Below, piece after piece: positions 19,976 through 62,093 of a stretch of DNA of 64,000 bases (within the stretch, counting starts at the first letter, position 1; every line of letters begins with the position of its first letter). The DNA lies in the NCBI RefSeq assembly GCF_024972735.1, contig NZ_CP087723.1, forward strand, positions 62,001 through 126,000, in the 5' to 3' direction. This stretch comes from Halalkaliarchaeum sp. AArc-CO. Its GTDB lineage: Archaea; Halobacteriota; Halobacteria; Halobacteriales; Haloferacaceae. The position numbers and the translations under genes are program-made. The notes beneath the pieces were generated by a model, which saw only the letters and a program-made list of their open reading frames with translations, ran no database searches and had not been told where the DNA came from.

Positions 19976-21787
19976 ATGGCCGACGACAGCATCGCGGTCG
20001 TGGACCTGGATCGCTGTCAGCCGGACCGGTGCAACTACGAGTGCTCGAACTACTGCCCGCCGAACCGCACCGGAAAGGAGTGTATCACGGTCCGCGGCGA
20101 GGACACCGAAGAGGGGGATCCCGATCAGATCCGTATCTCCGAGGAGATCTGTCTGGGGGAGACCTGCGGCATCTGCGTTCAGAAGTGCCCGTTCGACGCG
20201 ATCGAGATCCGCAACCTCCCCTCCGAGCTCTCGGACGATCCGATCCACCGGTACGGTGAAAACGCGTTCGCCCTGTACGGGTTGCCCCTCCCCGAACCGG
20301 GTCGGGTGACCGGGATCCTCGGCCCGAACGGGATCGGGAAGTCGACTGCGGTCCACGCGCTGGCCGGCGAACTCGTCCCGAACCTCGGCGACCACCTCGC
20401 CGATCCCGAGTGGGAGCGAGTGCTCGATCGGTTCCGGGGGACGGAGCTGCAGAACTACCTCGAACGGCTCATCGACGGGGACGTGACCGTTTCGCGGAAG
20501 CCGCAGTACGTCGACCGGATCCCGGACCAGTTTTCGGGACGGACCCGCGAGCTGCTCGAACGAACCGACGAGCGGGGCGATCTCGATCGGCTCGTCGATC
20601 GGCTCGGCATCGAGCCGGTGATGGACCAGCCGATCGAATCCATCTCCGGCGGCGAGCTCCAGCGGGTGGCGATTGCGGCGGCACTGGCCCGCGAGGCGGA
20701 TTTCTACTTCCTCGACGAGATCACGCCGTACCTCGACATCAGCCAGCGGATGACCGTCGCCCGGCTGATCCAGGAGCTGGCCGAGGAAGAGAACCGGTCG
20801 ATGCTCGTGGTCGAACACGACCTGGCGATCCTCGATCTGCTCGCCGACTCGTTGCACGTCGCGTACGGACAGCCCGGCGCGTTCGGCGTCATCACCGATC
20901 CCAAATCCGTTCGAAACGGAATCAACGAGTACCTGAAAGGCTACCTCGAAAACGAGAACATGCGGATCCGCCCCTCCCGGATCGAGTTCGAGGAGCACGC
21001 TCCCCGAACGGGGACGACCGGGAACCCGCTCGTGGAGTATCCCGACCTGTACAAGTCCTACGGCGAGGGCGAGTTCGAACTGACCGTCGAGGGCGGGACC
21101 GTCTACGAGTCGGAGGTGCTGGGCATCGTCGGTCCGAACGGGATCGGGAAGTCGACGCTGGCGAAGCTGTTCGCTGGGCGGCTCGAACCCGACGAGGGCG
21201 ATCTCGACTTCCGGCTCGACATCGCCTACAAGCCGCAGTACGTCGAGATCGATCAGCCGATGCGGGTCGACGCGTTCCTCTCGTCGATCACCGACGACTT
21301 CGGAACCTCTTTCTGGAACACGGAAATCGCTCAACCACTCCAGCTCGAACGGATCATGGAGCAGAACCTCACCGACCTCTCGGGCGGGGAGCGCCAGCGG
21401 GTGGCGATCGCGGCGTGTCTCTCCGAGGACGCCGACCTCTACCTGATGGACGAGCCGTCGGCACATCTCGACGTCGATCAGCGGGTGCAGGCGACGTCGG
21501 CGATCCGGCGGTACGCCGAGAACCACGACGCGACGGTGATGGTGATCGACCACGACATCTACATGATTGACCTCCTTTCGGATCGACTGATGGTGTTCGA
21601 CGGAGAGCCCGCCGCCCGGGGGCACGCCTCGAAGCCCCAGGAGATGCGGGCGGGAATGAACGATTTCCTCTCGGACCTGTCGGTCACGTTCCGGCGCGAC
21701 GAGCGTACGGGTCGGCCCCGCATCAACAAGCCCGGTTCCCAGAAGGACCAGCAGCAAAAGCGGGACGGCGAGTACTACTACGCCTGA
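19976..21787 (+). CDS. Ribosome recycling ATPase ABCE1 (Rli1)
   Basis: It splits ribosomes into subunits after termination. 603 residues. N-terminal Fe-S domain with two Cys clusters (CQPDRCNYECSNYCP ... KEC and CLGETCGICVQKCPF). Two ABC domains: first Walker A GPNGIGKST near residue 117, signature ISGGELQRVAIA and Walker B FYFLDEITPYLD; second Walker A again GPNGIGKST near 385, signature LSGGERQRVAIA and LYLMDEPSAHLD. Both hinge regions present. Usual length. Poly-T follows the stop. Confidence 0.97.
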   Translation: MADDSIAVVDLDRCQPDRCNYECSNYCPPNRTGKECITVRGEDTEEGDPDQIRISEEICLGETCGICVQKCPFDAIEIRNLPSELSDDPIHRYGENAFALYGLPLPEPGRVTGILGPNGIGKSTAVHALAGELVPNLGDHLADPEWERVLDRFRGTELQNYLERLIDGDVTVSRKPQYVDRIPDQFSGRTRELLERTDERGDLDRLVDRLGIEPVMDQPIESISGGELQRVAIAAALAREADFYFLDEITPYLDISQRMTVARLIQELAEEENRSMLVVEHDLAILDLLADSLHVAYGQPGAFGVITDPKSVRNGINEYLKGYLENENMRIRPSRIEFEEHAPRTGTTGNPLVEYPDLYKSYGEGEFELTVEGGTVYESEVLGIVGPNGIGKSTLAKLFAGRLEPDEGDLDFRLDIAYKPQYVEIDQPMRVDAFLSSITDDFGTSFWNTEIAQPLQLERIMEQNLTDLSGGERQRVAIAACLSEDADLYLMDEPSAHLDVDQRVQATSAIRRYAENHDATVMVIDHDIYMIDLLSDRLMVFDGEPAARGHASKPQEMRAGMNDFLSDLSVTFRRDERTGRPRINKPGSQKDQQQKRDGEYYYA

Positions 21788-21796
21788 CCACCGACC

Positions 21797-21803
21797 TTTT
21801 TTA
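21797..21803 (+). terminator. Oligo-T terminator after ABCE1
   Basis: CTTTTTT directly after the stop, followed by a perfect 14-bp hairpin at 21815-21854; archaeal termination commonly occurs at such T runs. Confidence 0.5.
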
Positions 21804-21820
21804 ACGGGGGCCTCGGAGCG

Positions 21821-21848
21821 CGAGGTTCTCGCATTCGCTCGAACCTCG
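21821..21848. repeat. 28-base palindromic repeat, copy 1
   Basis: CGAGGTTC arm, a 12-base loop TCGCATTCGCTC and GAACCTCG arm. In this copy the flanks extend the perfect stem to 14 bp (GGAGCGCGAGGTTC). An identical 28-base copy is at 22069-22096. Likely a dispersed haloarchaeal intergenic palindrome. Confidence 0.8.
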
Positions 21849-21954
21849 CGCTCCTCGACCCCCGCCAAAAAAGCTCTCGCGCAAATCCGCCGGATTTGCT
21901 GGATGCCACGGAGCTCCGCTCCGTGAGCAGACCAAAAAAGCCGATAGCTCGGGC

Positions 21955-22035
21955 CTCCGCCCCTCGCTATCGGTCCCCTCCGCCCCTCGCTATCGGTCCC
22001 CTCCGCCCCTCGCTATCGGTCCCCTCCGCCCCTCG
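21955..22035. repeat. 23-base tandem repeat, three copies and a part
   Basis: Unit CTCCGCCCCTCGCTATCGGT plus CCC repeats exactly at 21955-21977, 21978-22000 and 22001-22023, with a 12-base partial copy to 22035. There are no spacers, so it is not CRISPR. Confidence 0.85.
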
Positions 22036-22068
22036 TTCACGGCTCTCTCCGCTCACCGTTCGCGTCTC

Positions 22069-22096
22069 CGAGGTTCTCGCATTCGCTCGAACCTCG
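22069..22096. repeat. 28-base palindromic repeat, copy 2
   Basis: Identical to 21821-21848, lying just downstream of the DMT transporter stop (22109, minus strand), where it could form that gene's 3' hairpin. Confidence 0.8.
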
Positions 22097-22108
22097 CTAT
22101 GCTCGCGG

Positions 22109-23038
22109 TCACCGAACCGACGACAGGTCGAAATTCGCGATCCGTCGGAACCGGTCGTGTTTCACGAGCGCGAACCCGCCGAAGATCGTCACCAGTCCGC
22201 CCATCGTCGTGGGATCGATCAGCGACCCCAGCAACGCCCAGGAGATCGCGGTCGTCGGGACGGGTTGCGCGTAGATGACGAGGTTCAACTCCGAAGGGCC
22301 GACCCGATTCAGCAGGTAAAAGTACAGGAGGTAGGCGACGACGCTGGATCCGAGAGCGAGATACACGAGTGCGACGATCAGTGACGGGGTCCACGTGACG
22401 GCCGTCGATTCACTACTCAAGAGGCTGGCACCGTGCAGCAGGACGGCACCGACCAGCATCGCCCACGCCTGCATCGAGCGGATCGGTATCGCCGGATCCA
22501 GCGGCCGCATCCCCACGGTTCCCAGGGCCATCGACGCTGCTGCCACGAGGAGGAGCCCCACGCCGAACAGCGAGACGTCGGCGACGTGACCGGGTGAGGG
22601 CGAAACCACGATCACGACGCCGACGAACCCGAGCGCGACCCCCGAATACTGGATCGCCGAGAGGCGCTCGTCGGGGAAGACCGACGACGCGAACGTCACG
22701 GTGAGGACGGGAACGAGACTGACGACGACGGCGGCGACCGCGCCGGAGACGTACTGCTGGCCGAGATACAGGAACGCGTGGTGTGCGCCGATGAGAAGCG
22801 CACCCCCGACGAGGACTGCGAGCACGCTGTCGGCGTCACGCGGTACCCACTTGTCGGTCGTCGCCACCGCGTACGCCAGCAGCACGATCCCGGCGATGTC
22901 GTATCGAAGCGCCGCAAACAGCAACGGCGACACGTGTGGGAGGCCGATCTCGATTGCGACGAACGAACTTCCCCACAGTATCGCAAGTGCTCCGAATGCA
23001 ACCGGGATGACTGGTATTTTTCTCCAACTCGCAGCCAT
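22109..23038 (-). CDS. DMT superfamily (EamA) transporter
   Basis: 309 residues with about ten hydrophobic segments in two EamA repeats. First repeat begins PVAFGALAILWGSSFVAIE and ends AVVVSLVPVLTVTFASSVF; the second starts near LLVAAASMALGTVGM and contains YLYFYLLNRVGPSELNLV with the conserved P-V pattern of the last repeat. Members export amino acids, metabolites or drugs; the substrate cannot be read from sequence. Divergent from an Lrp regulator, which may control it. Confidence 0.88.
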   Translation of the reverse strand: MAASWRKIPVIPVAFGALAILWGSSFVAIEIGLPHVSPLLFAALRYDIAGIVLLAYAVATTDKWVPRDADSVLAVLVGGALLIGAHHAFLYLGQQYVSGAVAAVVVSLVPVLTVTFASSVFPDERLSAIQYSGVALGFVGVVIVVSPSPGHVADVSLFGVGLLLVAAASMALGTVGMRPLDPAIPIRSMQAWAMLVGAVLLHGASLLSSESTAVTWTPSLIVALVYLALGSSVVAYLLYFYLLNRVGPSELNLVIYAQPVPTTAISWALLGSLIDPTTMGGLVTIFGGFALVKHDRFRRIANFDLSSVR

Positions 23039-60400: not shown

Positions 60401-60456
60401 GTCGATCAGCGGGGAGGACGATCAGCGGGGGGTCGATCAGCGGGGAGGACGATCAG
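60401..60456. repeat. 25-base direct repeat with 31-base spacing
   Basis: GTCGATCAGCGGGGAGGACG plus ATCAG at 60401-60425 recurs at 60432-60456; the related GATCAGCGGGG also occurs between. The second copy covers the stop codon of the antiporter gene. Confidence 0.75.
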
Positions 60457-61613
60457 AGGGGAACGACCAGTACGAGCACCTTCGCGTAGATAACCATCGC
60501 CAGAAGTGCGAAGGGGTAGGTGTTCCCGTACCCTGCGGCGACCTCGTCGGAGTCAGTGGCGTCGATCGCTGCCGCCAACCCCTTGGTGTCGGTATGACCG
60601 CCGGTGATCCCGCCGGCAGCGTGGATCCAGTCCATCTTCCAGATCAGCCGGGTGAGCAGCAGGCCACCGACGATGGCGATGACGCTGTTGAGCGCCGACG
60701 CCGCCACAACCTGGGCGCCGTACTCCGCTATCGTCTCGACGAACCCCGCCCCGGCGTCGATCCCCACGACTGCCAGGAACATCGCCAGCGTGAACGCCCG
60801 GATCTCCGAGAGCACGGTCGTGTCCATCCGCGTCGGGATGGGGCCGACTCTGCCGACGTACCCCAGTGTTAGTGCGGCGATCAGTACACCGCCGGTGGTG
60901 CCCAGGGACGCCGCGCCGATCGGACCCATCGGGATCTCTATCGCCCCGATCACGGAGCCGACGACGATCACGAGCGCGAACCCCAGCACGCTGAACGTCA
61001 CCTCGGCGACGGACGGACCGTCCTCCTCGGTCTGCCCGCTCACCTTCTCGAGGAACCGCTCCTTCTCGGAAGCGATGTCGAGTTTCCCCAGCACCGGGTA
61101 CAGCTGCTGGAACATCACGATGATCAACACGCCGACGACGTAGCCGATCGAGTGGCCGATCTGGTAGTCCGCCCGGGCGGCTTCCGGAAGTGCCTCCATC
61201 GCGGATCCCAGCCCCGGGCTACTCGTCAACGCGCCCGAGAACGACCCCATGATCAGGGCCGTCGAGGCGTCGGCGAACACGAACTGCGTCCACACGTAGG
61301 TGAACGCCAGAGCGATGGTCGGCATCACGACCGCGATGACCACGAAGTTCAACCCGTAGGTCTTGATCGTCCCCTCGATCTCGTGGGCGGCGATCAGGCC
61401 GACGGCCGCCACGAACAGCGCCAGCGTTAGGCCGCTGAAGGAGCCTGGAACGGTAAACCCGAAGTGTCCCAGAACGAGCCCGGCGAACAGCGGCCCCGCG
61501 ACTCCAAACTTGATCCCGCGTCCGAGGTTCACCCGCCCGAACGCCATCCCGATCAGCACCGCGAGGAACATCACGAATACGCCGCTGCTTACCAGCGCAT
61601 CGACGGCCGTCAC
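60453..61613 (-). CDS. AspT/YidE-type antiporter (AAE family)
   Basis: 386 residues from GTG at 61613, with SD; an earlier GTG (61658) is possible. About ten hydrophobic helices in two repeated halves; each half has the Asp-Ala exchanger duplication motif (MGSFSGALTSSPGLGSAMEA and AGGITGGHTDTKGLAAAIDA). The regulatory TrkA_C domains found between the halves in bacterial AspT are absent. Substrate unknown. Confidence 0.82.
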   Translation of the reverse strand: MTAVDALVSSGVFVMFLAVLIGMAFGRVNLGRGIKFGVAGPLFAGLVLGHFGFTVPGSFSGLTLALFVAAVGLIAAHEIEGTIKTYGLNFVVIAVVMPTIALAFTYVWTQFVFADASTALIMGSFSGALTSSPGLGSAMEALPEAARADYQIGHSIGYVVGVLIIVMFQQLYPVLGKLDIASEKERFLEKVSGQTEEDGPSVAEVTFSVLGFALVIVVGSVIGAIEIPMGPIGAASLGTTGGVLIAALTLGYVGRVGPIPTRMDTTVLSEIRAFTLAMFLAVVGIDAGAGFVETIAEYGAQVVAASALNSVIAIVGGLLLTRLIWKMDWIHAAGGITGGHTDTKGLAAAIDATDSDEVAAGYGNTYPFALLAMVIYAKVLVLVVPL

Positions 61614-62018: not shown

Positions 62019-62093
62019 TCGAACGCGACCTACCCCCTCACGCTCGAACGCGACCTACCCCCTCACGCTCGAACGCGACCCACCCCCTCACGC
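62019..62093. repeat. 25-base tandem repeat, three copies
   Basis: Copies at 62019-62043, 62044-62068 and 62069-62093. The unit is TCGAACGCGACCTACCCCCT followed by CACGC; the third copy has one change (CCC for CCT). There are no spacers, so not CRISPR. It lies just upstream of the hjc promoter. Confidence 0.85.

Follow-up and report, generated by a model that had tools for sequence, protein, structure and literature searches.

A gap of little more than 300 bases between two convergent genes holds several palindromes and a tandem array, which raises the question of whether it is a site for dispersed repeats or a barrier to transcription, the two roles put forward in the original prediction for this locus. 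In the window (the whole 64,000-nucleotide stretch that was analysed), the gap between RLI, which ends at 21787 on the plus strand, and an EamA/DMT transporter gene, which ends at 22109 on the minus strand, is exactly 21788–22108.

Layout of the RLI locus

All of the parts previously described lie within this gap (Table 1), including the 14-bp perfect stem, two shorter palindromes (19-base hairpins), three exact 23-base tandem copies (21954–22022) and a second, identical 28-base palindrome; the last had been placed in the DMT gene but ends 12 nt outside it. Overlooked at that stage were the T6 and A6 tracts and the conserved frame linking these parts. Read from RLI, the composite element consists of the stop codon, 9 nt, T6, hairpin B, A6, A6 and hairpin A. 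Two layers can be told apart at the locus: a terminator-like frame that is old and conserved, and young repeats added to it.

Table 1 Features of the gap between RLI and the EamA/DMT transporter gene, in window coordinates
Feature	Position	Strand	Basis
RLI/ABCE1 gene, stop codon precedes the element	19976..21787	+	NCBIfam equivalog PRK13409 'ribosome biogenesis/translation initiation ATPase RLI', 929 bits
Conserved core, hairpin B and T6/A6 outer stem	21791..21888	+	Covariance model R1, 78.5 bits, E 1.3e-16 (genome); the window copy is one of 11 seeds
T6 tract 9 nt past the RLI stop, candidate RLI termination site	21797..21802	+	Sequence; stop-codon placement at other sites
Hairpin B inner stem, 14-bp perfect arms 21815–21828 / 21841–21854	21815..21854		Sequence
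28-base palindrome copy 1, species-specific, fills hairpin B	21821..21848	+	CGAGGTTCTCGCATTCGCTCGAACCTCG
A6 (T6 on the minus strand), right half of the hairpin B frame	21867..21872	-	Sequence, frame alignment
53-bp insert module with two hairpins (21881–21899, 21907–21925), between two A6 tracts	21877..21929		Five core-pattern copies in the genome
Second A6 (T6 on the minus strand), right after hairpin A read leftward	21934..21939	-	Sequence
Hairpin A, then T6 on the minus strand, resembling a hairpin-plus-U-tract terminator	21941..21973	-	Reading, folding
23-bp tandem array, 3.6 copies, duplicated hairpin A loop and 3' arm	21954..22035		Repeat search, 100% match
Copy 2 of the 28-base palindrome, within degenerate sequence of the 70-bp unit	22069..22096	+	CGAGGTTCTCGCATTCGCTCGAACCTCG
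EamA/DMT transporter gene, convergent	22109..23038	-	Pfam EamA, 1.4e-33

As RNA, the core folds better on the minus strand: a 101-nt core gave −51.6 kcal on the plus and −71.6 kcal on the minus strand (z-scores of −6.9 and −9.2), and none of 200 shuffles was as stable. A 20-base repeat query had two matches in the window and none in 100 dinucleotide shuffles (up to three mismatches). A simple terminator scan of 21600–22300 found no site in the element, its sole site being at 21731–21743 on the minus strand, inside RLI. A coding repeat was ruled out, as the region sits between two called genes and the open frames across it are mechanical. Elsewhere, the window also has tandem arrays at 62019–62093 (3.0 copies of 25 bp, 98% match) and 60401–60462 (2.0 copies of 31 bp).

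A conserved frame across haloarchaea

The copies behind RLI, topA, scpA and proS, together with two promoter-facing ones, have in common, with small departures, the sequence CSACC-T6-RACGGGGGCCTCG ... CGACCCCCGYC-A6-KCTC. In most copies, GACC-A6 and a second hairpin come after this, in some cases past an insert. Along the gene strand, the order is stop codon, ~6–9 nt, T6, hairpin B, A6, ~8 nt, A6 and hairpin A, with a double A6 and fixed frame ends (CCA-NN-T6...A6-NN-TGG).

Eleven copies from this genome, its sister species and one more genome were used to build a covariance model, R1, with 77 positions and 17 pairs. Searched against the whole genome of origin, R1 returned 12 rows at E ≤ 1; as two are second-strand echoes, this gives about ten frame copies. 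It matched 98 of 170 genomes of the family (E ≤ 0.01), representing 22 of 28 genera, and 146 of 293 genomes of the order (E ≤ 1e-4), representing 55 of 88 genera, with scores of up to 70–100 bits over the 77 positions; about half of the genomes searched in the family and order are without a match. Because the multi-genome searches scored 16 to 32 candidates per genome, copy numbers derived from them are lower bounds. In a phylum-wide sample of 148 genomes, of which 29 are identified individually, 9 matched, all 9 inside the order. The exact pattern CCACCTTTTTTNNCGGGG was found 15 times in the 293 genomes, compared with zero matches for its reversed control.

Rfam (release 15) contained no known RNA family for the locus or its relatives: a search of window positions 21500–22400 at E ≤ 5 gave six rows, all under the gathering score, and ten element loci gave no match. 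Nor did we find a description of the element in the literature searched, which covered few of the subscription papers. The frame is a conserved, covarying haloarchaeal gene-end element that appears to be undescribed.

Four further sites on contig C2 (L269, L270, L271 and L272, at 240, 421, 351 and 2773 kb) carry a weaker frame in which a GTCGGGTG-like sequence replaces CGGGGGCCTCG in hairpin B. Their T-run is similar, and three of them have CTSGASC-A5/6 to the right; they are perhaps a second subclass of the element.

Placement behind genes

We examined 72 high-scoring sites which, like the 108-copy set described below, include several orthologues of one gene and are not a random sample. At 57 of the 72, a coding-like frame ends with its stop codon no more than 20 nt ahead of the T-run (mode 6 nt), compared with 37 of 2,880 random positions at the same loci. 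The other 15 sites are without a stop codon at this distance, and several of them appear by eye to face promoters. Across 464 kb of the genome, a coding-like stop occurred within 40 nt before 13 of 68 T6+ runs, 4 of 68 A6+ runs and 709 of 21,000 random positions.

The genes ahead of the element include RLI, topA, proS, menB, dnaJ, phoU and aEF-1 beta (NCBIfam), as well as scpA, a pyruvate:ferredoxin-oxidoreductase-type beta subunit, CDP-archaeol synthase and the DNA polymerase D large subunit (Pfam). The same gene carries it in different genera: menB in four (three within the window's family, the fourth in another), the CarS-like gene in three, and dnaJ and phoU in two each; aEF-1 beta is a further case. 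The scpA and proS sites are common to both species of the genus.

At RLI itself, the sister species keeps the T6 and the left half of the element, but the downstream sequence and neighbours differ and no DMT homologue was found at that locus, which fits the left half belonging to the gene. Judged from the closest named relatives of its RLI, the genome is haloarchaeal. Among named relatives, a T6 run within 60 nt past the RLI stop was found in none of the 79 readable loci (one more, L107, was unreadable), and R1 gave a single weak match (E 0.24) in the 80. An old feature of the RLI gene is ruled out by these results, and the RLI site is thus known here from this genus only.

On the right, the neighbouring gene is codirectional in 56 and convergent in 49 of 105 called cases (3 were not called), using a caller that was correct for 85 of 93 left genes. 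Given this mixture, hairpin B does not consistently form part of a 3' UTR, and assignment of the element to the right-hand gene's 3' UTR is not supported. One R1 copy (L250:1501–1573; C2 2513988–2514060 of this genome, minus strand) lies a few bases past a tRNA-like 3' end (GGTTCAAATCCCAGCGAGTCCA); the one tRNA that ARAGORN called nearby is a different one (Ala). The element may terminate stable RNA genes as well.

Stem covariation and strand asymmetry

In an alignment of 57 distinct copies fitted to R1, 96.2% of cells were paired, both sides had changed in 13 of 20 pairs, and 143 cells were double changes compared to 47.3 in shuffles. Sliding the partner by one to three columns reduced pairing to 32–55%. 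The outer helix (columns 2–4 with 121–123) lies outside the model and still covaries; its pair 3–122, for example, is C-G in 38 copies, G-C in 14, A-U in 1 and unpaired in 4.

The structure is not equivalent on the two strands. The gene strand has conserved mismatches, such as AA/CC beside T6 and TC/TC at the base of the inner stem, which on the opposite strand turn into G-U steps and a tandem G-A. Among 108 copies, all retrieved with a model that itself carries this asymmetry, the opposite strand was more stable in 107 (mean −42.3 versus −32.5 kcal) and had 1.92 G-U pairs per copy compared to 0.10 on the gene strand. The TC...TC that yields the tandem G-A opposite was present in 103 of the 108 by an inner-sequence test and in 106 by a looser one, and the hairpin A region leaned the same way in 83. 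Inner stems alone had no strand bias (5 G-U pairs on the plus and 6 on the minus strand), so the asymmetry is a property of fixed positions. We make no claim of a genome-wide preference for tandem G-A hairpins beyond the repeats: 123 interrupted hairpins in 464 kb included 33 TC/TC and 4 GA/GA (2 and 3, respectively, among 54 hairpins of a Markov control), and most of the printed cases fall in the 70-bp array.

Leaving out seven of the 108 elements without a readable core, inner-stem identity was 0.609 within genomes (170 pairs), 0.516 between genera (4,363 pairs) and 0.658 between different genomes of one genus. Orthologous sites in different genera, at 0.52 (15 pairs), were no closer than any two sites, and the within-genome excess was reversed in 3 of 13 genomes, namely this genome, the sister species and G034. 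These figures indicate that stems turn over at fixed sites, with a modest sign of copying between sites; they argue only weakly for strong concerted evolution within genomes.

Species-specific repeats on the frame

Across the whole 3.18-Mb genome (two contigs), the 28-base palindrome, searched for as CGAGGTTCTCGCATTCGCTC, has 18 exact copies, distributed over the window (2), the region behind topA (1), the 70-bp array at scpA (14) and a site at 543 kb (1), and 22 rows at up to three mismatches; its reversed control had no match in the genome. The idea of dispersed repeat elements thus holds for the palindrome, which occupies four loci. The 543-kb copy lies in a degenerate repeat stretch where no T6 frame was seen, and a match at 2123 kb (three mismatches) was dropped as it falls within a coding stretch. 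In the sister species, the one other species of the genus examined, the 26-base form of the palindrome was absent at up to three mismatches. The condition originally set for refuting the prediction, sequences that are single-copy and lack conservation, thus does not hold: the parts of the locus are repeated in the genome and its frame is conserved, while the palindrome itself is not.

Repeat place and number also vary between orthologous sites. Tandem Repeats Finder (TRF) identified 14.7 copies of 70 bp at scpA and 7.0 copies of 69 bp at proS in this genome, and 6.2 copies of 65 bp at proS in the sister species, the proS array being inside hairpin B in the former and after it in the latter. 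At up to three mismatches, the unit CTCACGGGTCGCTNCGCTCCCCGTTCGC occurs 24 times in this genome and 16 times in the sister species, and is present in 21 of 60 genomes searched. The core pattern of the 53-bp insert has five copies in this genome and was not found in the sister species. A CRISPR or spacer array was ruled out: the 69–70-bp arrays are identical head-to-tail units without spacers.

The repeats as such are ordinary minisatellite growth, and the best reading of the palindrome expansion, judged from sequence, is a species-specific growth upon a putative terminator. Hairpins in this species would have grown through slippage and copying between sites, from which the 28-base palindrome, the 23-base array and the arrays of 69 bp (proS) and 70 bp (scpA) may have arisen.

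Several repeats nearby in kind were also seen. Behind one gene in the sister species (contig C1 514517–514708; L173/L174), two near-identical whole elements lie head to tail 119 bp apart, a recent whole-element duplication. At L025:1995–2225 (C2 ~543 kb of this genome) and L087:1340–1420, ...CGACAGCCTGTAAAA and a GCCCCGGGGCTTGACCCCGGGGC-type hairpin lie beside repeat stretches; we take these sequences to look like the ends of IS200/IS605-type elements. Finally, a run of GTTCACGGCTCCGAGGCCTCAC-type repeats of ~60 bp adjoins a tRNA-like gene at L090:1270–1620 (C2 ~2559.8 kb of this genome) and is a different repeat family of the same flavour.

Proposed function and alternative explanations

The usual picture of termination in archaea is a bare T-tract plus a cleavage factor. 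The reading we prefer, and to which we give roughly even chances, is that the region is one copy of a haloarchaeal composite gene-end element that acts as a transcription terminator and antisense barrier. The underlying frame is in keeping with the transcription barrier originally proposed: it lies directly after stop codons, contains T6 tracts and is kept across haloarchaea. The earlier interpretation is partly supported, each of its two suggestions holding in part. We infer each step of the mechanism from the anatomy of the element. RNA polymerase leaving the gene would halt at the T6 tract, as at known haloarchaeal T-stretch terminators. Polymerase arriving from the other side would run into hairpin A with its T6, then another T6 and finally hairpin B. 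The leftward RNA of hairpin B would be held by G-U wobbles and the conserved tandem G-A motif, and convergent or spurious antisense transcription would thereby be halted before entering the gene. In Haloferax volcanii, the termination motif of intergenic regions is a T-stretch, confirmed in vivo by reporter (PMC7237163). The 3' ends of Halobacterium salinarum mRNAs are enriched for antisense RNAs (PMC6523106), and work on Pyrococcus furiosus shows that an archaeal promoter can drive transcription in both directions (PMC6640164). The latter two findings make a barrier plausible even where the next gene is codirectional. A counterpoint is that termination at T6 would leave hairpin B untranscribed from the left, which does not account for its opposite-strand structure.

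A more ambitious version, which we offer tentatively, is that the copies form an order-wide, undescribed class of structured element at housekeeping 3' ends, with a selected antisense fold (U6/A6 stem, G-U steps and conserved tandem G-A) that guards against antisense or convergent transcription and is possibly bound by a protein of its own. If the proposed function is correct, a covarying element kept behind menB, dnaJ, phoU, CarS and similar genes in many haloarchaea would offer a concrete way to test how closely packed archaeal genomes are punctuated and how their essential genes are shielded from antisense transcription. Some of the GC-rich palindromes in the intergenic DNA of haloarchaea would then be growths on terminators, and the origin of minisatellites in that DNA would become visible.

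Three other explanations were weighed. The element could be a small mobile repeat whose T6...A6 inverted ends and hairpins, as single-stranded DNA, are moved in trans by an HUH/Y1-type (IS200/IS605-like) transposase that prefers gene ends, the arrays being by-products. Inverted ends, one-strand folding and differing copy numbers between genomes agree with this, as do the species-specific, multi-site palindrome and 53-bp insert, and transposase-free palindromic mobile repeats are known in Haloquadratum (PMC3119063). Inner stems are also closer within genomes than between genera, with cross-genus orthologous sites near the latter value; however, this likeness does not exceed that between genomes of one genus, and it fails in this genome, the sister species and G034. 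Copies in one genome are moreover not near-identical and keep their pairing through compensatory changes, and sites are common to several genera and one other family at a fixed stop-codon offset. We consider mobility unlikely on this balance. Somewhat more doubtful is that the leftward strand encodes a structured RNA, either as a small RNA or as a tag through which a protein binds antisense or convergent transcripts, with termination as a side effect. The near-universal stability of the opposite strand, the retained tandem G-A, the similar lean of hairpin A and the antisense RNAs enriched at H. salinarum 3' ends (PMC6523106) all favor such an RNA, but no promoter was identified for it, the right-hand gene orientation is mixed and the inner stems are without strand bias.

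The least probable of the explanations is that palindromes and arrays are neutral slippage and gene-conversion debris, that the frame is an ordinary T-tract terminator and that its resemblance across genomes is convergence. The repeats do differ in place and number between orthologous sites and are species-specific, and simple T-tracts suffice for archaeal termination (PMC7237163). We accept slippage and gene conversion for the repeats on top but not for the frame, where the R1 scores, fixed ends, double A6 and covariation across many genera exceed what T-tract convergence would yield, and where the exact pattern CCACCTTTTTTNNCGGGG recurs while its reversed control does not.

Comparison with known systems

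REP/BIME sequences usually exceed 100 copies per genome and carry a GTAG (or CGTC) tag at one palindrome end. The element resembles these and RAYT-mobilised repeats in its dispersed extragenic palindromes, one-strand folding, tandem-unit composites and contact with stop codons. It differs in having conserved orthologous sites; in addition, the consensus of a 45-sequence alignment contains no invariant GTAG or CGTC tag, and the copy number is lower, with about ten frame copies and 18 palindromes, 14 of them in one array.

The small mobile repeats and PATEs of Haloquadratum walsbyi are likewise short (roughly 110 bp), palindromic, transposase-free and haloarchaeal; within one type, small mobile repeats are commonly >95% identical, and their targets are other mobile elements (PMC3119063). 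Our copies, by contrast, differ from one another by compensatory changes and lie downstream of housekeeping genes. As for MITE-like traits in general, terminal inverted repeats are present (CCA-NN-T6...A6-NN-TGG), but copies are not near-identical, as reflected by the within-genome inner-stem mean.

The leftward arrangement of hairpin A then T6, judged by reading and folding, and the presence of T6 on both strands resemble bacterial-type intrinsic or bidirectional terminators, although the simple terminator scan called no site in the element. On the gene strand, however, T6 precedes hairpin B and none follows the hairpin, and the element is a long conserved frame with purine internal loops. 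With archaeal T-stretch terminators it shares a T-run just past the stop codon (57 of 72 sites within 20 nt, against 37 of 2,880 in the control). The distance is fixed at about 6–9 nt, whereas the median 3' UTR in H. volcanii is 97 nt (PMC7237163), and the T-run forms one arm of a conserved, covarying structure that also contains another T6 pair and another hairpin.
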